Assembly: GCA_019636695.1 (NCBI GenBank)
Contig: JAHBXD010000001.1
Coordinates: 1 to 53,660 of the forward strand
DNA from: Phycisphaeraceae bacterium
GTDB taxonomy: Bacteria > Planctomycetota > Phycisphaerae > Phycisphaerales > UBA1924
DNA length: 53,660 nucleotides
Reading direction: 5' to 3'
Every line of letters starts with the position of its first letter. The first letter of the stretch is position 1. Below, piece by piece: positions 914-43,409 of the stretch. A program made the position numbers and the translations under genes. Under the pieces are notes generated by a model. The model was not told the DNA's origin. It saw nothing but the letters and a program-made list of their open reading frames with translations, and ran no database searches.

Positions 914-2119
914 ATGCCCAGACGAGCCGCAGTGATCGCCGCAGTTCGAACTCCTGTAGGAAGGTATGGAGGGGCACTTTCGGCCGTCCGTCCCGATGAT
1001 CTTGCGGCCCATGTCATCCGGGTTGCGGTAAGCAGTGCAGGCATCGATCCTTCACTGGTTGATGATGTCTACTTCGGTGCAGCCAATCAGGCGGGCGAAG
1101 ACAACCGGAATGTCGCCCGAATGGCTGCCTTGCTCGCAGGCCTGCCTGAGACCGTTCCGGGTGTGACCGTCAATCGCTTGTGCGCATCGGGTTTGGAGGC
1201 GGTGCACATTGCCGCACGCATGATCGAGGCCGGACACGGTGAGGTGTTGATTGCGGGTGGTGTCGAGTCGATGAGCCGGGCGCCTTATGTGCTTTCGAAG
1301 AGTGATGCGGCTTTTAGCCGAGGGCAGGAACTTTACGACACGACGATCGGCTGGCGATTCGTCAACCCGCGGCTCGCCAAGGTGCACAACCCCTATGCCA
1401 TGGGTGAGACGGCGGAGAACGTTGCTCGTCGTTACGGGGTGAGCCGCCAAGAGCAGGATCGTTACGCGGTGCAGAGTCATCGGCGATGGGCAGCCGCGCA
1501 CAAGGCCGGGCGGTTTGCAGTTGAGTCAGCGCCTGTTGAAATTCCGCAGCGGAAAGGCGAGCCGATCGTCGTGGATACGGATGAGCATCCGCGTCCGGAT
1601 ACGACGCTCGAACAGCTGGCGAAGCTTCGCCCGGCATTTTCAACGGATGAATCGGCGACCGTGACCGCGGGGAACTCGTCGGGCGTGAATGACGGCGCCG
1701 CGGCACTCGTGCTGGTCGAAGCCGAGCGTGCTAAGTCGCTCGGCTTCGAACCGATCGCGTTTGTCGGCCCGAGCGCGTCGGCGGGCGTTGACCCCGCTTG
1801 CATGGGCATCGGGCCGGTGCCGGCCATACGCAAGGTTCTGGAGCGAGCCAAACTCACGCTCGGCGATATCGGATTGGTCGAGTTGAACGAAGCCTTCGCC
1901 GCCCAGACGGTCGCGTGCCTTCGGGAACTCAGGCTGGATGAAGAGCGTGTGAATGTTCAAGGTGGGGCGATTGCGATCGGGCATCCACTCGGGTGCAGCG
2001 GCGCGCGGATGGCGACGACGCTCGTGCACCAGATGCGTGCGGCGGGGATTGAACGAGGAATTGCATCGCTTTGCGTGGGCGTGGGGCAGGGTCTGGCGAC
2101 CGTTTTTGAACGTGCGTAG
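914..2119 (+). CDS. thiolase (acetyl-CoA acyltransferase, 3-oxoacyl-CoA thiolase type)
   Basis: This 401-residue protein has a full thiolase layout: nucleophile Cys90 in NRLCASGLEAV, NEAFA at 325-329, His357 in GHPLGCSGAR and the second catalytic Cys387 in SLCVGVGQG. The reaction is CoA-dependent cleavage of a 3-oxoacyl-CoA to acetyl-CoA and a shortened acyl-CoA, or the reverse condensation. I chose the ATG at 914 because the conserved N-terminus (RRAAVIAAVRTPVGRYGG) begins there; an in-frame ATG 30 bp upstream adds unconserved residues. It resembles 3-oxoadipyl-CoA and acetyl-CoA thiolases. The nearby CoA-transferase and aminotransferase suggest it finishes the pathway encoded on the opposite strand, although a secreted-protein gene intervenes. 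Confidence 0.93.
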   Translation: MPRRAAVIAAVRTPVGRYGGALSAVRPDDLAAHVIRVAVSSAGIDPSLVDDVYFGAANQAGEDNRNVARMAALLAGLPETVPGVTVNRLCASGLEAVHIAARMIEAGHGEVLIAGGVESMSRAPYVLSKSDAAFSRGQELYDTTIGWRFVNPRLAKVHNPYAMGETAENVARRYGVSRQEQDRYAVQSHRRWAAAHKAGRFAVESAPVEIPQRKGEPIVVDTDEHPRPDTTLEQLAKLRPAFSTDESATVTAGNSSGVNDGAAALVLVEAERAKSLGFEPIAFVGPSASAGVDPACMGIGPVPAIRKVLERAKLTLGDIGLVELNEAFAAQTVACLRELRLDEERVNVQGGAIAIGHPLGCSGARMATTLVHQMRAAGIERGIASLCVGVGQGLATVFERA

Positions 2120-2746
2120 GCGCCATGCTCACCCGGGTTACTTATATGAGAATAGCCTTTCTGGGTTCGTGTTGTCGTTGACGAGCACGCCAGTATTAGT
2201 GCTTGCACGCCATTGGACATGAACATGTGAACACGCTGATGCAGCGGTTTCCATGGAAGCAGGCTCGCGGATGTGCAGGGAGAGGGTGTTCCGATCGTCT
2301 GAGGATCGGATTCCACAATCTAAAGCCCATTGTGTATGCAGGGGATCGGCACCTTGCCAGCACGACGGCACCCTTGCTCTCAGGCGACATCAGGTGCAGG
2401 CATCACGATCGGCGGACCGCTGAGCGGTGGATCGAGCGCGGCATGGCGAGACCTCGGAACGAGCGGGTCAAGATGTTCCGATATTCTGATATCATCGATC
2501 AATCGCACGCTTCTGAACATGCAAACTTATGCCAAATATCAGTTCTCATCGTCGGTGCGGGCCGCTGAATCGTGATATCCGTGGAACCCGGTCGAGATGC
2601 CGGGTACTTCAGAATGGGGGCAAACTTCTGGGGATTTCCCTTGACACATGGCGCAGCATCGGCACATTGAAGTAGCCCCGATGTTCGCTCAGGTGCCGAC
2701 AACACGAGTGGGGCTGTCACAATGGTGCTTACGGAGGCAAGGGACG
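2120..2746. other. intergenic stretch with no recognisable gene
   Basis: About 630 bases between the thiolase and the secreted protein. Short frames exist, but none has family motifs or a convincing ribosome site. A TTGACA hexamer at 2641-2646 could be a -35 element for the downstream gene, but the matching -10 is weak. No tRNA or repeat was seen. Confidence 0.5.
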
Positions 2747-3391
2747 ATGAAAAATATATCGCACGCCGCGTTCGCTTTCCTGGCCATGACTGGTTCGGCA
2801 TCCGCCGATGTGTTTTTCGATTTCTCGGCGAGCGGTCATGGTTTTACATCGGCGGGGAGTCCATCATGGGTTTGGGGCGGTGCATACCCAGCGCCTGGGG
2901 GCGTGGCATGGTCCACCCCAGGCGGAATCAGCACTGCCAACACGTTGACCTCGCCAGTGCTCACGGTCACGACGGCAGGCTTCATCACGGGCTCGTTTAC
3001 CCATCGCTACAACTTCGAAGATCGTTTTGACAGCGGCGTCATCAAATTCCAGCGGAACGATGAGGGGATCCATGTCATTCCGGCCAGCCTGATGCCCATG
3101 AACCCGCCGACCGGGTCGGCAGACCGCTTCACCGGCACCAGCCCCGGGTGGATTGATCCGGGGTACATCACCACCACCTTTACACTCGGCGCTGCGGTTT
3201 TCGGTCCCGCGCTGTTTGAGGTCGGTGATCGGGTCATTTTTCAGTTCAACGCAGGGTGGGACCATGTCACCACGTGGGACGCGCCCAATTGGCAGATCGG
3301 TTCGTTACGCCTTTCGAACGTCGTGCCCTCGCCGGGCGGTGCAGCGTTGCTTGGCCTCGCCGGAGTGCTGGCGGGCCGACGTCGGCGCTAA
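2747..3391 (+). CDS. secreted protein with PEP-CTERM-like sorting tail
   Basis: The 214-residue product begins with a signal peptide (MKNISHAAFAFLAMTGSASA) and ends with a Pro-containing motif, a hydrophobic segment and an Arg run (VVPSPGGAALLGLAGVLAGR then RRR). That is the PEP-CTERM/exosortase-type architecture common in planctomycetes. The ATG at 2747 is chosen because GGAGG lies about 10 bases upstream and the signal peptide starts there; an in-frame upstream ATG at 2648 adds a non-signal extension. The body is rich in Gly, Ser, Thr and aromatics, as in extracellular beta-rich proteins. I recognise no catalytic domain. It is probably exported and anchored or released through an exosortase-like system. 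Confidence 0.8.
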   Translation: MKNISHAAFAFLAMTGSASADVFFDFSASGHGFTSAGSPSWVWGGAYPAPGGVAWSTPGGISTANTLTSPVLTVTTAGFITGSFTHRYNFEDRFDSGVIKFQRNDEGIHVIPASLMPMNPPTGSADRFTGTSPGWIDPGYITTTFTLGAAVFGPALFEVGDRVIFQFNAGWDHVTTWDAPNWQIGSLRLSNVVPSPGGAALLGLAGVLAGRRRR

Positions 3392-3607
3392 GCGCGTAGA
3401 CGCCGATATGGAATCGCACACATCTCGGGCATCAATGCGCCCGGTGCATGCTGCGGAGTTCTCGTCGTATCCATGCTTGGGTTGAGGTATGTGGGTTGAG
3501 GTAAGGGCTGCACCGATCGGCGCACGACACGCAATGGCACGGGAAGAGGAGTTGAAGGGCGTGAAGCCGAATTTCCAGCGGGTTAAAAGAACGTACTTGC
3601 GTGACGC

Positions 3608-4957
3608 TTAGTCCATGGCAGCCAGTTTATCGAAGCCGGAGTGGAACGCTTCCACAAGGGTGTCGATTTCGGCTTCGGCCATCGGTGTAGAGAGCGTGGC
3701 CGAGCCACTGTTGATGAGGATGAAGCCGAGTTCAAAGAGATGCTCGAGGAGCACCTTAAGGCGCTGATTTTCAGCGGGCGTCGCGTGGGCTTCGCGGAAG
3801 TCGCTCGGGACATTCGGCTTCATGTGCACGCGGAACATGGAACCGTAGCCGGCCACGCTGGCGGACACGCCAGTGGCGCGTATGGCCCGATTGATGCCGG
3901 CTCTTGCACGATCAGCCATGGTGTTCAGGCGAGTGACTGCCGCAGGATCGAAGAGCTCCATCGCGGTGAGCCCTGCGGTCATGGAGATCGGGTTTGCCGA
4001 GAAGGTGCCGGAGTGGGGGAAACGCACGGTGGAGGCATGCGGATTGAGGACATCCATGATGTCGGCGCGGCCTGCGACGGCACCGATGGGGAACCCCCCG
4101 CCGATGATCTTGCCGAGTGCGGTCAGGTCCGGGGTGACACCGTAGCGTGTCTGAAGCCCGCCGTATTCCGAGCGGAAGGTGATGACTTCGTCTAGCACAA
4201 GAAGGACGCCGTGGCGAGCTGTCCACTCACGTATCGCGGCGACGAACTCGGGGTTCGCGGGGTGCAGGCCGATGCGGTGCGGCATCAGGTCCAGCAGCAC
4301 GCAGGCGAGCCTGTCTCTGTGTGCATCGAGGATTGCCAGCGTGCGATCGACGTCGTTGAAAGGCACGATCGCCACTTCATCAAGCACGGATAGCGGTGTT
4401 CCGTAGACAAGGGGAACAGGGTTTGGACGATCGATGGGACCCCAATCGGCTGGTGAGGGGGACTGGCTGACCTCGGCATAGTCGTAGATCCCGTGGTAAG
4501 CGCCCTCGGCTTTAGCGATCATGGATCTGCCGGTAAACGCGCGCGCGGCTTTCAAGGCGACCATGATGGCCTCGGTGCCCGAGTTGACAAAACGCATTTT
4601 CTCAAAGTTCGGGTTTCGAGCCCGAAGGTGCTCGGCAAAGCGGACTTCGACCTCCGTCGCCAGGGTAAATGCCGTGCCGCGACCAAGTTGTTCGATGACG
4701 GCCTGCATCACCTGCGGGCAGGCATGACCGTGGATGAGTGAAGCCATGTTGTTGGCGAAGTCGATGCGGGTGACGCCTTCGATGTCGACGACGCGGTAGC
4801 CTTGTGCATGGTCGGCGTAAACCGGGTGTGGATCTCGCAGCACGGCGTTGCGGCTGACGCCGCCGGGAAGCAGGTTTCGTGCACGAGAAAAGAGCTCGGC
4901 GCTGCGTGTTGTGGTGGTTTGTGCCGATGAGCCTGAGAATGACATCTTGAGATCCAT
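3608..4957 (-). CDS. class III PLP aminotransferase, GSAM-like, possible beta-amino-acid transaminase
   Basis: A 449-residue fold-type I PLP enzyme. NSGTEA (125-130), LDEV with Asp256, and the Schiff-base Lys283 in ALGKIIGGG match the glutamate-1-semialdehyde aminomutase/class III aminotransferase group. A housekeeping heme GSAM is unlikely because the gene closes an operon with CoA-transferase subunits and a KamA-like aminomutase. Known beta-phenylalanine aminotransferases belong to this same GSAM-like branch, so a beta-amino acid to 3-oxo acid transamination fits the context; that is inference. It starts 8 bases after the CoA-transferase B stop, consistent with one transcript. ATG codons at 4957 and 4945 are both possible starts. 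Confidence 0.85.
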   Translation of the reverse strand: MDLKMSFSGSSAQTTTTRSAELFSRARNLLPGGVSRNAVLRDPHPVYADHAQGYRVVDIEGVTRIDFANNMASLIHGHACPQVMQAVIEQLGRGTAFTLATEVEVRFAEHLRARNPNFEKMRFVNSGTEAIMVALKAARAFTGRSMIAKAEGAYHGIYDYAEVSQSPSPADWGPIDRPNPVPLVYGTPLSVLDEVAIVPFNDVDRTLAILDAHRDRLACVLLDLMPHRIGLHPANPEFVAAIREWTARHGVLLVLDEVITFRSEYGGLQTRYGVTPDLTALGKIIGGGFPIGAVAGRADIMDVLNPHASTVRFPHSGTFSANPISMTAGLTAMELFDPAAVTRLNTMADRARAGINRAIRATGVSASVAGYGSMFRVHMKPNVPSDFREAHATPAENQRLKVLLEHLFELGFILINSGSATLSTPMAEAEIDTLVEAFHSGFDKLAAMD

Positions 4958-4965
4958 CCGGCGAG

Positions 4966-5622
4966 CTACATGATGGGCAACAGCGGCGCGCCGGTGCGCT
5001 GTTGCACGTCGTCGAGGGTTATACCCGGGGCGAGTTCGACAAGCCTGAATCCTTCAGGGGTGACATCGATCACCGCCATTTCGGTATAAATTCGATCAAC
5101 GACACCCTGCCCCGTCAGCGGCAGCGTGCAGGTGGCAACGAGTTTGGGCTGGCCGTCTTTCGTGCAGTGCGTAGTGACGACGTACACCCGCTTGACGCCG
5201 GCGCAGAGATCCATCGCGCCCCCGACCGCTGGTATGGCATCGGGTTCGCCGGTGGACCAGTTGGCAAGGTCGCCGTTATGCGCCACCTGGAGAGCGCCGA
5301 GCACGCTGACATCGATATGCCCGCCTCGGATCATCGCGAAACTGTCGGCGTGGTGAAAATAGGCCGCCCCGGGAAGCGCGGTGACCTGTCGTTTGCCTGC
5401 ATTGATGAGTTCGGGGTCGCCTTGCCCCGCCGCGGGCGGCGGTCCCATGCCGATCATGCCGTTTTCGGTGTGGTAGATGACCGTGCGATCTTCGGGAACA
5501 AAGCTCGCAATCAGCTCAGGGATGCCGATGCCGAGGTTGACGTAGGAGCCATTGGGGATATCCATCGCTACGCGCTGGGCCATCTGCTCACGCGTCCATC
5601 CGTTCGAGGCGGCCTTAGTCAT
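4966..5622 (-). CDS. scoB: 3-oxoacid CoA-transferase subunit B
   Basis: The 218-residue beta subunit of a family I CoA-transferase. It has the glycine-rich NLGIGIPELI segment and the catalytic glutamate Glu53 in HTENGMIGMG, which forms the glutamyl-CoA intermediate in this family. Length and motifs match ScoB/PcaJ/AtoA proteins. It overlaps subunit A by 4 bases (ATGA), so the two are translationally coupled and should form the usual heteromer. The expected role is transfer of CoA from succinyl-CoA or acetyl-CoA to a 3-oxo acid. The particular acid cannot be told from sequence; the neighbours suggest one made by transamination. Confidence 0.9.
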   Translation of the reverse strand: MTKAASNGWTREQMAQRVAMDIPNGSYVNLGIGIPELIASFVPEDRTVIYHTENGMIGMGPPPAAGQGDPELINAGKRQVTALPGAAYFHHADSFAMIRGGHIDVSVLGALQVAHNGDLANWSTGEPDAIPAVGGAMDLCAGVKRVYVVTTHCTKDGQPKLVATCTLPLTGQGVVDRIYTEMAVIDVTPEGFRLVELAPGITLDDVQQRTGAPLLPIM

Positions 5623-6329
5623 GGGTAGGTCGCTCCAGCTTTGATCAGTTCGGATTCGTGCGCTGGGAGTGCGACTTCGACGACGCGCTGAACGAAGATA
5701 CCGGGCGTGACGACGGTCTCCGGATCAATCTCGCCTGCCGGGACGACACGCTGTGCCTGAACGATGGTGATTTCCGCCGCCATCGCCATGATCGGGCCGA
5801 AGTTGCGCGCTGTCTTGTTGTAGACGACATTGCCATGGGTGTCCGCGGCTCTTCCTTTGATGAGTGCAAAGTCGGCGCGGAGGGCATGTTCGAGAATGTA
5901 GGGGCGTCCGTTGAAGGTCCGAACTTCCTTCCCTTCGGCGAGTGGCGTGCCGACCGCCGTGGGTGTATAGAACCCCGGGATGCCCGCGCCGCCGGCGCGG
6001 ATGCGTTCGGCGAGTGTGCCTTGCGGGGTCAGTTCAAGCTCGCATTTCCCCGCGCGGTAAAGCTCGGGGAAGACAGTCGAGTTGGCGGTTCGGGGGAACG
6101 AGCAGATGATCTTGCGAACGCGACCAGCCTTGAAGAGCGCTGCCAAACCCACTTCGCCGCTGCCGCAGTTATTGCTGACGACGGTCAGATCGCGAGCGCC
6201 TTGGTCGATGAGAGCATGGATTAGTTCGATCGGACTGCCGGACTCGCCGAACCCGCCGACCATGACCACGGCGCCATTGAAGACATCCGCGACGGCTTCG
6301 TGCACATTGGGATAGAACTTCTGAAGCAT
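5619..6329 (-). CDS. scoA: 3-oxoacid CoA-transferase subunit A
   Basis: The 236-residue alpha subunit of a family I CoA-transferase. The signature GGFGESGSP lies near residue 26, followed by TVVSNNCGSGEVGLAAL and a DTHGNVVYNKTARNFGP stretch typical of ScoA/PcaI/AtoD. It precedes subunit B with a 4-base overlap and follows the aminomutase by 31 bases, so the set reads as one leftward operon. The ATG at 6329 begins the conserved N-terminal helix (MLQKFYPNVHEAVADVFNG). Substrate specificity is not deducible. A 3-oxoadipate role is possible but unsupported, because no aromatic-degradation genes are nearby. Confidence 0.9.
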   Translation of the reverse strand: MLQKFYPNVHEAVADVFNGAVVMVGGFGESGSPIELIHALIDQGARDLTVVSNNCGSGEVGLAALFKAGRVRKIICSFPRTANSTVFPELYRAGKCELELTPQGTLAERIRAGGAGIPGFYTPTAVGTPLAEGKEVRTFNGRPYILEHALRADFALIKGRAADTHGNVVYNKTARNFGPIMAMAAEITIVQAQRVVPAGEIDPETVVTPGIFVQRVVEVALPAHESELIKAGATYP

Positions 6330-6360
6330 GCTCGTGCCTGTGTATCAACGGCTCTCGCAC

Positions 6361-7812
6361 TTATGCGCAACCCGTCCGAGCGACCGGCATGGAGGAGATC
6401 GGCGAAAACGAAGGCTTGGTGACACGGTTGTACGAATACAGGCCCGCTTCGTCGAAAAGCACACGGTCTTCGTATCCATCGAACCACAGGGCATCGGGGT
6501 TACGCCCGACGATGCAAACTTTGCCGGCGTCAGGGGCGGACCCGGCGTTCCGGAGAATCTTGAAGATGACGACGCCGTTTTCGGAACCTTTCAATCCCTG
6601 GATGGGCTTGTTCGTCACTGCGGCGACCTCAGTCTTGCCTTTGTAATGGGTGATCGAGAGCCTGGCGTGCTTTTCCACACCGCTGAGGCCCTTCTGTGAT
6701 TCGTTGAGAATGTGCCAGGCGCGTTCGATGGGAATGTTGAAGGCTTTATACGCGACGATGTCGCGACCGCAGAAGAAATAATGATTTTCTCCGCCGATGC
6801 GTTTGAACTCGCGTTGTAGGATTCGCAGGGCATCGGGGTCATCGTTGATTCCGCGAATGATCGGGGCCTGGTTCTCAACGGTCAGCCAGCCGCGAGAGAC
6901 CAGCCCGCGCATGGCTTCACCCGTGTCCGGTGTCCATTGCTTGAAGCCCTGGGCATCTTCGACGTAGTTCCCTTCGTCATCTTTCTGCAGGAACTCGTCA
7001 GGATGCTCGAAGTGCAGCATCATGTGCAGGCCGACCTGCGGGTAGGTTTCGTGGAAGCGATCGAGCATGCCGAGGAAAGTACTGTCAAAACGCTTCGGGT
7101 AGAAGGCCATCTCCTTGGTGCCGATGCGGATGGATTCAACTCCGGCTTCGGCAAGGGCAGCAAGCCACGCCGCGATCTTGCGGTTGTTGAGCACCATGGG
7201 GTCGCCGCCGCTGAGCAGAATCTCGCGCAGCTTTTCGCGGCCGGTCTCCGGGTGCAACCCTCCGTTGGCTGCAACAAGCTCGTTGTGTGCCTTGATATAG
7301 GCCACGACTTCGGGGATCTGTGCGAGACCCTTTTTGGCGACCGTGCCATCCTGCCGCTTGATCTCCTTTCGAGCGATCAGTTCCTCGCGATAACAGAAGC
7401 GGCAGTGGGCTGAGCAAGTGGAGATGACATACATCAGCCCCATTTCATATTTGTGCAGCAGGCCTTCCACGGGGCTGTAATCCATCTGGTTGCCGGGATC
7501 CTCCGATCCTGCGAGGTCAATCGTCTCATCGGGGCTGGCCTTGACGAGACGTTGCAGCGAAGGGCTTCGCCGGGCGAGTTCGTAGTAATGGCGCGTCACT
7601 TTCACAGGCATGCGTGCCTCGACATCGCGCTCGGTTCCCTTGAGCACCCGGAGTCGTACAACTTCATCAGGGCTGTAGAAGTCCAGCATGTCCTGGGGCG
7701 CTTTCTCGTCGAAGAAAGGCGCCAGTCCGTTGATGATCTCGCGCTTGTAGGTCGGATCCTCCACGGTGTTCAGAAATGCCAGCTCTCGGGATGTCGGGGT
7801 GTATTCGGTCAT
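6361..7812 (-). CDS. KamA-family radical SAM aminomutase, substrate uncertain
   Basis: A 483-residue protein of the lysine 2,3-aminomutase family. The radical-SAM cluster motif CSAHCRFC supplies Cys133, Cys137 and Cys140. LLSGGDP (199-205) and a C-terminal GKT with Lys393, the likely PLP lysine, follow in the right order. The family uses SAM, a 4Fe-4S cluster and PLP to shift an amino group from C2 to C3. True lysine enzymes carry DAPGGGGK before the PLP lysine, the Asp binding the substrate's epsilon-amine; here that segment reads SITHYKGK with no acid. Lysine is therefore doubtful and another amino acid is likely. It is the first gene of the leftward operon and is divergent from an RpiR regulator. 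Confidence 0.85.
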   Translation of the reverse strand: MTEYTPTSRELAFLNTVEDPTYKREIINGLAPFFDEKAPQDMLDFYSPDEVVRLRVLKGTERDVEARMPVKVTRHYYELARRSPSLQRLVKASPDETIDLAGSEDPGNQMDYSPVEGLLHKYEMGLMYVISTCSAHCRFCYREELIARKEIKRQDGTVAKKGLAQIPEVVAYIKAHNELVAANGGLHPETGREKLREILLSGGDPMVLNNRKIAAWLAALAEAGVESIRIGTKEMAFYPKRFDSTFLGMLDRFHETYPQVGLHMMLHFEHPDEFLQKDDEGNYVEDAQGFKQWTPDTGEAMRGLVSRGWLTVENQAPIIRGINDDPDALRILQREFKRIGGENHYFFCGRDIVAYKAFNIPIERAWHILNESQKGLSGVEKHARLSITHYKGKTEVAAVTNKPIQGLKGSENGVVIFKILRNAGSAPDAGKVCIVGRNPDALWFDGYEDRVLFDEAGLYSYNRVTKPSFSPISSMPVARTGCA

Positions 7813-7914
7813 GCTGGTGCAGCTCCGTGCTTGATGCAGGCGGGTCAGCGATCTGGAACAGAGTGTACAATATCACCGTCGGATCGCAACAGAATGAACA
7901 ATTGGGAGGCTGAC
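7813..7914. promoter_or_regulatory. divergent promoter region between the aminomutase operon and the RpiR regulator
   Basis: This 102-base gap separates the two divergent starts, so both promoters must sit here or overlap the coding ends. TACAAT at 7866-7871 is a plausible -10 for the rightward regulator. A clear Shine-Dalgarno GGGAGG (7904-7909) lies 5 bases before the GTG at 7915. No strong operator palindrome is obvious. Confidence 0.45.
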
Positions 7915-8793
7915 GTGTCGATCCAAGACCTTATCGCCTCCAAGAGTGCAAGCCTAACGCAAACTGATCGCAGGATCGCGCAAGTTGTTCTGGGTAATCC
8001 TACCCAGATCGCATTCAGCACGGTCGCGGACCTCGCGCGGCAGGCACGGACCAGTCGACCTTCGGTGGTACGCTTTGCAATGAAGCTTGGTTTTGAGGGA
8101 TACAGCGAACTTCAAGCTTGGATTCGCGAAGAAGTTGCTCGTCAACTCGCCATCCCCAGCCTGCGAATCCGCAGACGTGAACCCCAAGGCCTGATTCGCG
8201 GTGACATCGAGAAATCGGTCGCGGCAGCTTTTGAGGCCCTTGCAGATGCAAGGATCGGAACGCTTACAGCACCAGTGATCGCCGCACGAAATGTTTGGAT
8301 TTTATCTGGTGAAACCTCTATGGCAGGTGCATATGTGCTGCACAGTGGGCTGTCGATGCTCCGGCCAGGGGTTCACCTGGTGCTTGAACATTCCGCAGGA
8401 AGAGATCTTTGTGGTGCATCGGCTGAGGATGCGGCGGTGATTTTCGACTTTGCCAGGTATCGGAAGACACCGATTACCGCCGCGAAAGCTCTCACGGAAA
8501 TGGGGGTCCAGTTGGTAGCGATCACAGACGGGCCGCTGTCGCCGTTGGCCACCCTGACACCGAACTGGTGCGCGTTGAAGATCCCGGCGGTGGGGCCGTT
8601 TGATAGCGCGGTGCCGCCGGTGATCGCGGCGGAGCTGCTGGTTGCACGAATCGCGTTTGAACTCGGCGACGCGGCCCGGGAGCGGATCGATCGCCTCGAG
8701 TCGCTCTGGCAGCGCATCGAGACATTTCTGGAGTACATGCCCCGGCACGAGCGATTCGGTCACAGTGGAGACCGAGCTACCGAGAATTGGTAG
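7915..8793 (+). CDS. RpiR-family transcriptional regulator (HTH plus SIS domain)
   Basis: The N-terminal helix-turn-helix (LTQTDRRIAQVVLGNP, then TVADLARQARTSRPSVVRF) is the RpiR/HTH_6 pattern. The rest (about residues 110-260) looks like a SIS sugar-isomerase-type ligand domain. The GTG at 7915 is preferred over the in-frame ATG at 7894: GGGAGG sits 5 bases upstream and the family N-terminus (SIQDLIASKSASLTQTD) starts there. Divergence from the aminomutase operon makes it the natural local regulator. RpiR proteins usually sense phosphosugars, but some regulate amino-acid or CoA metabolism. The last residues (about 283-293) abut foreign integrase DNA, so the original C-terminus may have been altered. 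Confidence 0.85.
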   Translation: MSIQDLIASKSASLTQTDRRIAQVVLGNPTQIAFSTVADLARQARTSRPSVVRFAMKLGFEGYSELQAWIREEVARQLAIPSLRIRRREPQGLIRGDIEKSVAAAFEALADARIGTLTAPVIAARNVWILSGETSMAGAYVLHSGLSMLRPGVHLVLEHSAGRDLCGASAEDAAVIFDFARYRKTPITAAKALTEMGVQLVAITDGPLSPLATLTPNWCALKIPAVGPFDSAVPPVIAAELLVARIAFELGDAARERIDRLESLWQRIETFLEYMPRHERFGHSGDRATENW

Positions 8794-9943: not shown

Positions 9944-11482
9944 TCAGGAGCGATACTGCTTCCATGCGACGCCAAGTTTGCGCATCTTCGATCGGAGAGT
10001 GTGGGGGTTGATGTCGAGGAGCGCTGCAGCGCCGCGCGGGCCTTCGATGCGGCCGAGTGTGCGCTGCAGGACGGCCTCGATATGGGCGCGCACCACCGCT
10101 TTTAGGGAAGCGCTTTGGCTGGCAGTAAGGTCTGCGCTGCCAGAGGCCAAGCCGGCAAGGGGCGACGCATGCACGGGCGAACCCATGGCGGCGGCGATGG
10201 CGAGGCGATGACCCTTCCCGAGCAGGGCCGCACGATCGATGACTGCCGCGAGTTCACGGACATTGCCGGGCCATGGATAGTCGGCAAGGGCGGCGATGTC
10301 CTCAGGAGTGATCTCGAACTTGGGGAGCCCGAAGCGCACGGAAGCGCGGGCTGCAAAGTGGACTGCCAGATCGGCCAGATCCTCGCGGCGCTCCCGGAGC
10401 GGCGGGATGAGCAAAGGAAAGACGGCCAATCGATACCAGAGGTCTTCGCGAAAGGTTCCGGCGCGAACCATTTCGGCAAGATCGCGATGAGTGGCGGCGA
10501 TGATGCGGCAACTCACCTGAATCGTGTCCTGTCCTCCCACACGTTCCAGCGTGCCTTCCTGAATCACGCGAAGGAGCCGCACTTGAGCGGCCAGGGAGAG
10601 TTCGGCGACCTCATCAAGAAAGAGGGTTCCACCGTCTGCCCGCTCGAACCAGCCTTGCCGGCGCTCTGTCGCTCCCGTGAATGAGCCTTTCTCATGTCCG
10701 AATAACTGGGAGTCGATGAGTTCGTGCGGAATCGCGCCGCAGTTGACACGAATGAAGGGTCCGGGTGCGCGATCGGATCGATCGTGAACGGCCCGCGCAA
10801 TGACCTCCTTGCCCGAACCGGTTTCGCCGAGGATGAGCACCGACACATCGGAACTTGAAACGAGCCCGACGCGCTCCATGACCCCTCGTAGCCCGCGAGA
10901 GACGCCCACGATCGAGTCATCCAACGTCTGGCGTCCGAGGCGGGCGAGTGCTGCTTCGCGATCGGCTTCCGCAGCGCGCTTGAGCGCTTCGAGTTGGTGG
11001 AATCGTCGAGAGGTATCGAGCGCCACCGCCAAAGGCTCAAGAATCGCCGAAAGCATCTCGGTCAAGTCATCGTCCACGTCGGAGGTCTTGCGCAGCCGCC
11101 AAGCGACGATACCTTCGGGCTCATCCTCTCGAAGGAGCGCCCCGCAGATGACCGGCTGCGTCCCCAGCACAGGGCAAAGCGGGCGAAGAAGGGTGCGTCC
11201 GGGTCGGGTCGGATGCAGGGGCGAGATCCCGCCGCGGCGAATCCAGCGTGTCAGCCCATCGAGTTCGTCTTCCTTCAACTTCAGGTGCTTTGGGGCGGGT
11301 TGATCAGTGCCGGTCGTGGCGACGAGGTCACAGCGGCCTTCCTCCAAGGCGAAGATCCACATGCGTTCGAGCCCGATGCTTCGGTCGATGGTGGCGTGAA
11401 GATCCGAGAGGGAGTCTCCGAGGTCGATATGGCGACATGCATCGCGCCAGAGGGAGAGTTGCAGGCGTTGCGTACGGTCCAT
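9944..11482 (-). CDS. sigma-54-dependent activator (GAF-like, AAA+, Fis HTH)
   Basis: A 512-residue enhancer-binding protein. Residues about 15-165 look like a GAF sensor domain. The AAA+ core has Walker A GETGSGKE, the sigma-54-contacting loop GSFTGA (a variant of GAFTGA), Walker [10 protein letters not shown], an arginine-finger region (FREDLWYRL) and [11 protein letters not shown] Fis-type helix-turn-helix ([19 protein letters not shown]) ends the protein. There is no receiver domain, so activation is probably by a small molecule or redox state sensed by the GAF-like domain. It diverges from the sulfur operon, whose start carries a -24/-12 promoter, and is the evident activator of that operon. 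Two palindromes lie just upstream of its own start, so autoregulation is possible. Confidence 0.92.
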
Positions 11483-41898: not shown

Positions 41899-41937
41899 AC
41901 ACAAAGAAATGGAGCCGGGGGGAATCGAACCCCCGTG
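41899..41937. repeat. right attachment site (attR), overlapping the tmRNA 3' end
   Basis: Identical over 39 bases to 9576-9614. Here it is part of a complete tmRNA, containing its T-arm and acceptor strand, so this copy restores the gene after insertion. Confidence 0.88.
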
Positions 41938-42257
41938 TCGTGACAGTCAGCTGATCGCCTCTACGCGTGTGTTCGATGTGTTGATCTCAGCCTTGGGGCG
42001 GCCATCGACAACCTCCCCTCGGCCCAGCAGCCGGTAAAATCTTACCGAGGCGCCCGGCGGCGCCGCGCTTTCGGCCAGCCCGATGTCTTCGATCCCCGCC
42101 CCATCGGGCGTCAGGCGGAGATCGCACGGCCTATCAGGCCGCGAGACGATAACCGCTGTTGTTGGCAGTTATTGTGTTGCGTGCTTTTGACGCGGCATGC
42201 ACGCCCCTCGACGCGCCACAATCAGCCTTCCCTGTCCGGTCGATACCGATCGGCCCC
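41910..42257 (-). ncRNA. ssrA: tmRNA (one-piece)
   Basis: Read on the minus strand, the RNA starts GGGGCCGATCGGTATCGACC, the tmRNA 5' end (E. coli GGGGCTGATTCTGGATTCGAC). It ends with T-arm GGGGGTTCGATTCCCCC and CGGCTCC plus A. The 5' GGGGCCG pairs with CGGCTCC over 7 bp with one G-U. The tag frame lies at 42134-42166: after ATAACT the resume codon GCC begins ANNSGYRLAA then TGA, followed directly by TAG. The LAA end is the usual protease signal. CCA is not encoded. Length is 348 nt. It rescues stalled ribosomes. The 3' end is the island's integration site. Confidence 0.95.
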
Positions 42258-42333
42258 AGTTGTCAATGTACACCGAATGCTGCCACCCGGTTACCCAAGT
42301 TTACGCTGCTTCCGGGGTGGGCGTTCAAAGTAC

Positions 42334-43409
42334 ATGCGAACTCCAAAAACTTATCGGAACCGATACGGATCCAGATCGTATCACGCACATGTCAGGCCCT
42401 TGCGATTCGACGTCGGGCGCGTCGCGATCAAACCGAGTGGTCCACGAGTTCTCCCGCCTAGACTGCGATGCCCGAAGGCACGAACCAGAGCTGTTCTGGT
42501 GCACCGCGACCGGAGGCAGTCTTTGTATCAGCGACCGACAAGGGTGTCTCTTCCCCCTCTCCCCGCCGTAAAGGCGCACGCCGATGCCAAGCCATGGACC
42601 AGGTTCGATGGCATCGAGGTTGTTGCTGGAGACGAACTGGATTTCAATTCACGGATCGCCCGCGACCCGTATGCGTTGCCTGCAACACCCGATCGCGAGG
42701 GATATCACGGCCAAAGGCACTTTGATTACTGGTTGAGCGGCCTCAAAGACTACCTGCTGATTCGACAGCGGCTGCGCCACGCCACGGGGGGGGCCACCTG
42801 ACCCAAGGCCGGCGAGTGCTCGATTTCGGGTGTGCCAGCGGGCGCGTGCTGCGGCACTTTGCCTGCCAGGCAGATGGGCTTGAGGTCTGGGGATGCGATA
42901 TCTCGCCTTCGCACGTGGCATGGGTGCGGCGGCATCTCCCACCATCCATCAAAATGTTCGACAATCACGCGCTTCCGAGTCTGCCGCTGGAAGACAACAG
43001 TTTCGATCTCGTCTATGCCTTCAGTGTCTTCAGTCATCTCGATGAGCACGAACTGGGGTGGTTGCTCGAACTGCGCCGAATCCTGCGTCCCGGTGGGTTC
43101 GCCTACCTGACAACGCACACGGACCACACCTGGAGCATCCTCAAACCTGAGCACGGGGTCTACCAGGGGTTATTGACACGCATGGAAGGCAGCGACCCGC
43201 CTATCGAGCGCTCGCCCGAGATGTTCAAGTCGCCCCTGCCGGCGGAACGCGTGGTCTTCTGGGCCAAAGGCGCCACGGTGTACGGCAGAAATGTCTTCCA
43301 TTCGACAGACTACATCCGGGCGACGTGGGGCCGCTTCTTTGAAATCAGCGCCATACATCGCGAAGGCGCATACTACCAGGATGTAATCCTGCTCAGAAAA
43401 CCTGCCTGA
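42334..43409 (+). pseudogene. SAM-dependent methyltransferase split by a frameshift in a run of eight G
   Basis: The upstream part ends RHFDYWLSGLKDYLLIRQRL then RHATGG in one frame. The downstream part continues HLTQGRRVLDFGCASGRVLR in another, which is the normal continuation into methyltransferase motif I (LDFGCASG). The break lies in a G-tract at 42786-42793; one additional G restores one frame. Motif III-like DLVYAFSVFSHLDEHEL and RPGGFAYLTTH follow, as in small class I methyltransferases. The start at 42334 is uncertain because the region before about 42570 is not protein-like. It could be phase-variable, a decayed gene or a homopolymer sequencing error. Confidence 0.72.

Follow-up and report, generated by a model that had tools for sequence, protein, structure and literature searches.

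The window, by which we mean the whole 53,660-nucleotide stretch of Phycisphaeraceae contig JAHBXD010000001.1, carries near its left end a group of genes around a KamA-like aminomutase of the radical S-adenosylmethionine (SAM)/pyridoxal phosphate (PLP) type, which we call KAM (6361-7812, minus strand). On the same strand KAM is followed by the two subunits of a CoA-transferase, A of the SCOT/PcaI type (5619-6329) and B of the PcaJ/ScoB type (4966-5622), and by a class III transaminase, AT3 (3608-4957). These leftward genes are densely packed in an operon-like manner, with a 31-bp gap, a 4-bp overlap, and an 8-bp gap between them. Convergent with the operon lies a PcaF-like thiolase, THIO (from an ATG at 914 to 2119, plus strand), and divergent from KAM is an RpiR-type regulator (7894-8793, plus strand, start codon uncertain). 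All positions and strands agree with those given in the initial annotation of this DNA. We propose, with a probability of about 0.82, that the conserved five-gene set of aminomutase, CoA-transferase subunits, transaminase, and thiolase would degrade L-2-aminoadipate to succinyl-CoA and acetyl-CoA via 3-oxoadipate.

The Pfam families at the locus are thiolase for THIO, CoA_trans for both A and B, Aminotran_3 for AT3, and HTH_6 with SIS for the regulator; KAM has no Pfam match and was assigned by profile, fold, and residues. An unrelated open reading frame (ORF; 2648-3391, plus strand) separates the thiolase from AT3 in the window, while in many relatives the two genes adjoin. This ORF is likewise without a Pfam match, and its C-terminal GGAALLGLAGVLAGRRRR end looks PEP-CTERM-like by eye.

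Conservation and distribution of the gene set

With the scan for relatives limited to one genome per species, 188 were obtained; 80 of these, with identities of 74-85%, were retained. Together with the window's own locus and nine from a sample of the phylum they make up 90 KAM loci, some genomes being present in both sets, and the denominators that follow count only those loci with enough flank. Downstream of KAM, subunit A is present in 86 of 87 loci, subunit B in 81 of 81, and AT3 in 66 of 66. The convergent thiolase was found in 48 of 61 loci and the divergent RpiR gene upstream of KAM in 46 of 81. Such co-conservation, which the initial annotation had named as its own check, is far above chance and supports the class of pathway that it had sketched, from an alpha-amino acid to a beta-amino acid, a 3-oxo acid, a 3-oxoacyl-CoA, and finally two acyl-CoA. 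Clustering of ORFs over the 80 loci revealed no widely recurrent neighbor besides the six-gene cassette that includes the regulator; the remaining larger clusters overlap cassette genes on the opposite strand, as judged by position, and others are groups of 4-5 loci. In loci without RpiR, inspection of the genes upstream of KAM gave nothing clear.

In the phylum sample of 294 genomes, KAM was detected at E < 1e-200 in 10; after these, identity drops to 38% at the next match, which sets the family clearly apart. Most of the closest named relatives are titled Phycisphaerales, and the operon is also present in metagenome-assembled genomes titled Chthoniobacterales, Spartobacteria, or Verrucomicrobiota (loci L009, L014, L035, and L043). 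In the sources, the aminomutase of this operon is listed as lysine 2,3-aminomutase, KamA family protein, or hypothetical protein. The window genome (G000; 3.11 Mb, 9 contigs) has a single KAM. In one verrucomicrobial genome, G320, about 3.3 kb of unrelated ORFs are inserted between the A and B genes of the KAM operon (L156, 9535-14169).

A sigma-54-dependent, NorR/NifA-like activator is encoded close to the operon of the window (9944-11482, minus strand); among the loci compared, weaker relatives of it lie near KAM only in L081 and L090.

Family scores and substrate residues of the enzymes

KAM scores 95.9 bits against TIGR00238, under the cut-off of 199.2, and is therefore a distant relative of the KamA-type aminomutases rather than a filed member. 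Its scores are 69.5 bits against lysine 2,3-aminomutase TIGR03820 (cut-off 525.4) and 77.4 bits against glutamate 2,3-aminomutase TIGR04368 (cut-off 650). The KAM-family profile matches lysine 2,3-aminomutase 2a5h at 1.8e-46, and an AlphaFold model of KAM (mean predicted local distance difference test score, pLDDT, 84), used for fold recognition only, has 2a5h as its best solved fold match at 3.9e-17. Residue conservation was read from matches covering 85% of the query without stops, with the window entered twice for KAM and once each for AT3 and THIO. In the KAM rows, the CxxxCxxC cluster motif (Cys133/Cys137/Cys140) and Arg142 are invariant, and Lys393 is by eye the counterpart of the PLP lysine.

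Aligned to 2a5h by profile, KAM has Arg350 on the Asp of 'QCDLSLG', the binder of the lysine side-chain amine, which we take to be D293 in clostridial numbering. Position 350 is Arg in 90 of 90 KAM rows, and the second lysine-binding Asp falls by eye near Thr388, outside the hidden Markov model alignment. According to passages of PMC3965090, glutamate and lysine 2,3-aminomutases are told apart by replacement of this Asp pair, which in the glutamate enzyme becomes Lys and Asn. The exchange of Asp for Arg350 argues for, but does not prove, a substrate with a side-chain acid. Shorter KamA-like paralogues in the phylum sample (L091, L094, L095, and L103) also have Arg at this position.

Two other substrates have to be weighed at this point. 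With lysine, as in Bacillus or clostridia, the product of KAM would be beta-lysine; the KamA homology and a link to lysine catabolism genes, described below, speak for such a route, and the uniform loss of the lysine-binding Asp and a score far under the 525.4-bit cut-off speak against it. The beta-lysine 5,6-aminomutase family PF09043 was found in 0 of 20 genomes, in a search that had no positive control and gave no match in the controls either. We consider the lysine route scarcely credible. With glutamate, KAM would be a glutamate 2,3-aminomutase, and 3-aminoglutarate would pass via 3-oxoglutarate to malonyl-CoA and acetyl-CoA. Arg350 would suit any side-chain carboxylate, and the glutamate enzyme likewise replaces the Asp pair (PMC3965090, in the passages cited above), but KAM lies far below the 650-bit cut-off and has Arg350 and, by eye, Thr388 where that enzyme has Lys and Asn.

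AT3 scores 320.5 bits against HemL TIGR00713, under its cut-off of 527.3, which rules out the heme-pathway enzyme (GSAM), in keeping with the initial annotation. Its nearest match in the PDB is the Sphaerobacter beta-transaminase StoTA (6k8h, 4.3e-126), and Arg36, which aligns with StoTA Arg36, is kept in 65 of 65 rows. In the portion of PMC10589169 consulted, this P-pocket residue of StoTA is the proposed binder of the substrate carboxylate. AT3 is predicted to act on the free beta-amino acid 3-aminoadipate. In KAM genomes AT3 is found at 55-70% identity, and several encode a further class III transaminase, at 33-39%, which may be HemL; in the window genome AT3 was the sole match in the transaminase search, and no separate HemL was seen. 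Rhizobial homologues of AT3 (about 46-48%) stand in other gene contexts, so AT3 alone is no marker of the route.

Subunits A and B pass the cut-offs of TIGR02429 (349.7 bits against 128.5) and TIGR02428 (304 against 243.55), respectively. By these scores the pair is of the 3-oxoacid type (PcaIJ/ScoAB), and we predict it to be a 3-oxoadipate:succinyl-CoA CoA-transferase. The same substrate might also be processed in reversed order, with the CoA-transferase acting first to give 3-aminoadipyl-CoA and the transaminase then working on the CoA ester, like Kat. Kat offers a precedent, being a HemL-like transaminase of a lysine pathway that takes CoA esters only, as far as the text available from PMC3149608 goes; the closest solved relative of AT3, however, is a free-acid beta-transaminase with the same Arg36, and a CoA-transferase of the 3-oxoacid type also argues for transamination first. 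We regard the reversed order as unlikely.

THIO has as its three top models 3-oxoadipyl-CoA thiolases (563.3, 560.8, and 486.3 bits), each scoring below its own cut-off. The best of all models is PcaF TIGR02430, whose cut-off of 597 is not reached by the 563.3 bits; among lower-ranked models a general acyltransferase follows at 471.1 bits, and the next named one at 434.3 and down. THIO shares 56% identity with the PcaF proteins encoded at two pca loci. Cys90 and the covering-loop sequence Ile-Gly-Trp-Arg148 are invariant in 48 of 48 rows, while the two residues before them vary (Thr/Ser/Ala). Cys90 and a covering loop with Arg148 are features of PcaF in the part of PMC7337054 that was accessible, and THIO is a predicted 3-oxoadipyl-CoA thiolase.

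Of the five-gene set, KAM and AT3 alone are also found on a rhizobial plasmid. On Mesorhizobium plasmid NZ_AP023244.1 the order is KAM (66.7%), a ferredoxin FdxA, AT3 (56%), and two subunits of a glutaconate-type CoA-transferase (1poi); this pair is only about 26% like the B subunit of the window and not orthologous to the window's pair. Its beta subunit is 78-81% identical to Chelatococcus and Methylocella copies and 67% to a Phyllobacterium copy. In all three annotated loci that were opened, these homologous pairs adjoin pcaF among pca genes, two of the loci having pcaGH and the third pcaD, pcaQ, and pobA; a fourth locus that was opened is unannotated. The CoA-transferase recruited here beside the same aminomutase and transaminase, of a different type, is therefore most likely for 3-oxoadipate. 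FdxA may reduce the iron-sulphur cluster of KAM. Upstream of the plasmid cassette lie BREX defence genes (L135, 1-9881).

The initial annotation had offered leucine as its example, and leucine or another neutral amino acid would run from beta-leucine through 4-methyl-3-oxopentanoate to isobutyryl-CoA and acetyl-CoA. SCOT-type CoA-transferases can be broad, which would leave room for such a substrate, and StoTA, the nearest solved transaminase, takes beta-leucine in the part of PMC10589169 that describes it. Leucine is contradicted by the invariant Arg350 at the side-chain position, by the PcaF-type loop of THIO, by the pca-type CoA-transferase in Mesorhizobium, and by the gene linkage described below; outside the cassette, there is no widely recurrent neighbor to process isobutyryl-CoA. 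We hold the leucine reading to be very improbable. Glutamate is likewise disfavored by the PcaF-like thiolase and the pca-type CoA-transferase, which point to a six-carbon oxo acid. Taken with the Asp-to-Arg exchange and the gene linkage, they argue for a six-carbon dicarboxylic substrate, L-2-aminoadipate.

Association with genes that form 2-aminoadipate

Lysine 6-transaminase (LAT) and piperideine-6-carboxylate (P6C) dehydrogenase (P6CDH) together convert lysine to 2-aminoadipate, as described in sections of PMC9854754. In the phylum sample, P6CDH (E <= 1e-150) was found in 10 of 10 KAM genomes and in 107 of 284 others (p = 7.8e-5), and LAT scored above its cut-off in 7 of the 10 genomes with KAM, compared with 41 of the 284 without (p = 1.7e-4). 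The P6CDH homologue of the window genome scores 725.2 bits, just under the 730 cut-off. In G092, P6CDH is convergent with AT3 of the KAM operon, at the usual place of the thiolase. In a verrucomicrobial order, LAT (E <= 1e-120) was present in 5 of 5 KAM genomes and 23 of 142 others (p = 1.8e-4). Glutamate as the substrate would leave this association unexplained; it would need no upstream gene and would fit genomes without LAT. Overall, we judge the glutamate route quite unlikely. For a route through beta-lysine, LAT and P6CDH would have the wrong place, since they would precede, and not follow, the predicted KAM step.

The verrucomicrobial genomes provide a further physical link. P6CDH stands beside LAT in 17 of 17 loci chosen for carrying LAT, and the three P6CDH copies that were scanned all score above the family cut-off. 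A thiolase 74% identical to that of the window lies inside the LAT-P6CDH cluster in four of the five KAM genomes (in the fifth the contig ends) and in none of the 12 KAM-less genomes read. These 12 were drawn from the 23 LAT-bearing KAM-less genomes, and the sequence extends at least 4.7 kb past P6CDH in 11 of them and 0.9 kb in L191. In G302 the KAM operon, thiolase, P6CDH, and LAT share one contig within about 15 kb, and in G320 KAM and LAT are on one contig, about 21 kb apart. In G314 the KAM contig and the LAT contig each hold a part of the thiolase gene and have in common, at their ends, an identical 107 bp within it, so the thiolase-P6CDH-LAT block probably adjoins the KAM operon there.

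Additional genes were noted in these clusters. Each of the five verrucomicrobial KAM loci read has, close to KAM, a thiolase-superfamily gene of a different kind, SCP2-like by eye (L154, 5622-6857, the sole copy scanned; L156, 6446-7684; L158, 14586-15821; L159, 5930-7162; L162, 8174-9409). In three KAM genomes, the LAT-P6CDH cluster also encodes a protein of about 425-475 aa (L157, 9155-10582; L161, 924-2321; L160, 12589-13866), two copies being without a Pfam match and one without an NCBIfam match at E 1e-60. The LAT-P6CDH region is partly duplicated in G299 (L160, 6991-17691), with a second P6CDH and a LAT fragment.

Several observations weigh against the proposed route or against lysine as its source. 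The exact tests for LAT and P6CDH count related genomes as independent, LAT characterizes certain families, and each of the 7 genomes sampled from the window's family has P6CDH, whether or not KAM is present. LAT is absent from the window genome and from all 7 of those genomes, and it passes the cut-off in only 13 of the 50 KAM genomes reached through loci, with one more LAT at 505 bits and one cut by a contig end; this set came from 50 hand-chosen loci of the 80, and at least two of its members duplicate genomes from the first set. The 90 KAM loci, whose flanks reach 8 kb at most, yielded no LAT and no P6CDH, and a search for LAT adjoining KAM gave no match in 110 loci, these 90 among them. 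No enzyme leading from lysine to P6C was recognized in the window genome. Saccharopine dehydrogenase as the lysine source was rejected for G000 and G095, where saccharopine-dehydrogenase-like genes amounted to a single 28-bit partial match in the former and none in the latter. In the window genome, where neither LAT nor a clear substitute turned up, 2-aminoadipate may instead be made by another enzyme or be of extracellular origin. The verrucomicrobial LAT-P6CDH pair is accompanied by acyl-CoA dehydrogenase and FadB-like genes whether or not the genome has KAM, so a second lysine route may operate there alongside the first.

The enzymes themselves add to this side. KAM, AT3, and THIO each score below the cut-off of the nearest named family, and the KAM model is weak, with block pLDDT values of about 58-66 across much of residues 101-160, the cluster region. 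Arg at position 350 is shared by ten KamA-like paralogues whose function is unassigned, so it argues against lysine better than it argues for 2-aminoadipate; they were compared in alignment A1 (38 sequences, with L098, L105, L109, and L110 removed over in-frame stops and L101, L102, L104, and L106-L108 not included). The convergent thiolase is missing in 13 of 61 KAM loci. On the Mesorhizobium plasmid, the alpha-subunit gene of the CoA-transferase is split by a frame change, and 31 kb of the plasmid hold no thiolase annotation.

Two genomes from the window's order that have no KAM carry saccharopine-dehydrogenase-like genes beside or near P6CDH (G231, contig C24, about 596-599 kb; G278, contig C21, about 48-54 kb), as a possible other route from lysine to P6C. 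Elsewhere in the window, a tmRNA (tag ANNSGYRLAA) and a tRNA-Gly(ccc) adjoin each other on the minus strand (41910-42451).

The proposed route and its relation to known systems

We infer every substrate and every reaction of the route. Where both are present, LAT and P6CDH would convert lysine to L-2-aminoadipate. KAM would then move the amino group by one carbon to give 3-aminoadipate, AT3 would convert this to 3-oxoadipate, and the CoA-transferase, using succinyl-CoA, would form 3-oxoadipyl-CoA. Cleavage by the thiolase would yield succinyl-CoA and acetyl-CoA. The succinyl-CoA released could serve as the CoA donor, so that 2-aminoadipate would feed into the lower beta-ketoadipate pathway with all its carbon retained. 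The classical route through 2-oxoadipate and glutaryl-CoA loses CO2.

We think it likely that KAM is an L-2-aminoadipate 2,3-aminomutase that opens a carbon-conserving lysine route via 3-aminoadipate, and that the cassette has spread among Planctomycetota and Verrucomicrobiota and onto one or more rhizobial plasmids, picking up another type of CoA-transferase in the process. The literature searched, which left out most subscription papers, held no description of a 2-aminoadipate aminomutase or a 3-aminoadipate route. If correct, this assignment would add a new amino acid to the substrates of radical-SAM aminomutases, link the breakdown of lysine with the beta-ketoadipate pathway, and provide a means of retaining all six 2-aminoadipate carbons, as succinyl-CoA and acetyl-CoA. 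It would also account for a conserved operon that has been annotated so variously. Isotope labeling would be expected to carry C1 and C2 of lysine into acetyl-CoA, not CO2. Both 3-aminoadipate and 3-oxoadipate are of interest toward adipate-type chemicals.

This system is most closely related to the kam operon of Bacillus, to the lysine fermentation that uses Kat, and to the beta-ketoadipate pathway. The Bacillus subtilis sporulation operon, with the gene order kamA-yodPQRST, likewise combines a KamA-family aminomutase, CoA-transferase subunits, and a class III transaminase. The cassette described here differs in including a PcaF-like thiolase and in having no recurrent gene for an acetyltransferase or a deacylase. 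According to the accessible text of PMC6522883, Bacillus KamA is a lysine 2,3-aminomutase, about 60% identical to 2a5h, and YodT is an uncharacterized class III transaminase; KAM, in contrast, belongs to a distant subfamily without the Asp. Glutamate 2,3-aminomutase resembles KAM in that the lysine-binding Asp pair is replaced in both (PMC3965090, same passages), but by different residues, and KAM is far under its family cut-off.

Lysine fermentation in Cloacamonas acidaminovorans also joins an aminomutase, a HemL-like beta-transaminase (Kat), a CoA-transferase, and a thiolase. As set out in the portion of PMC3149608 cited above, it differs in employing 2,3- and 5,6-aminomutases and two further enzymes, with Kat acting on CoA esters only. 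The LAT/P6CDH route has the same upstream steps to 2-aminoadipate (PMC9854754, in the sections noted), and its genes are clustered in the verrucomicrobial order; the classical version continues via 2-oxoadipate and glutaryl-CoA, whereas here 2-aminoadipate would be rearranged. With the beta-ketoadipate pathway (pcaIJ, pcaF), the proposed route would share the lower part, that is, the 3-oxoadipate CoA-transferase and the 3-oxoadipyl-CoA thiolase, and the Mesorhizobium cassette has a pca-type CoA-transferase. In that pathway 3-oxoadipate comes from aromatic ring cleavage, whereas here it would arise from an amino acid through an aminomutase and a transaminase.

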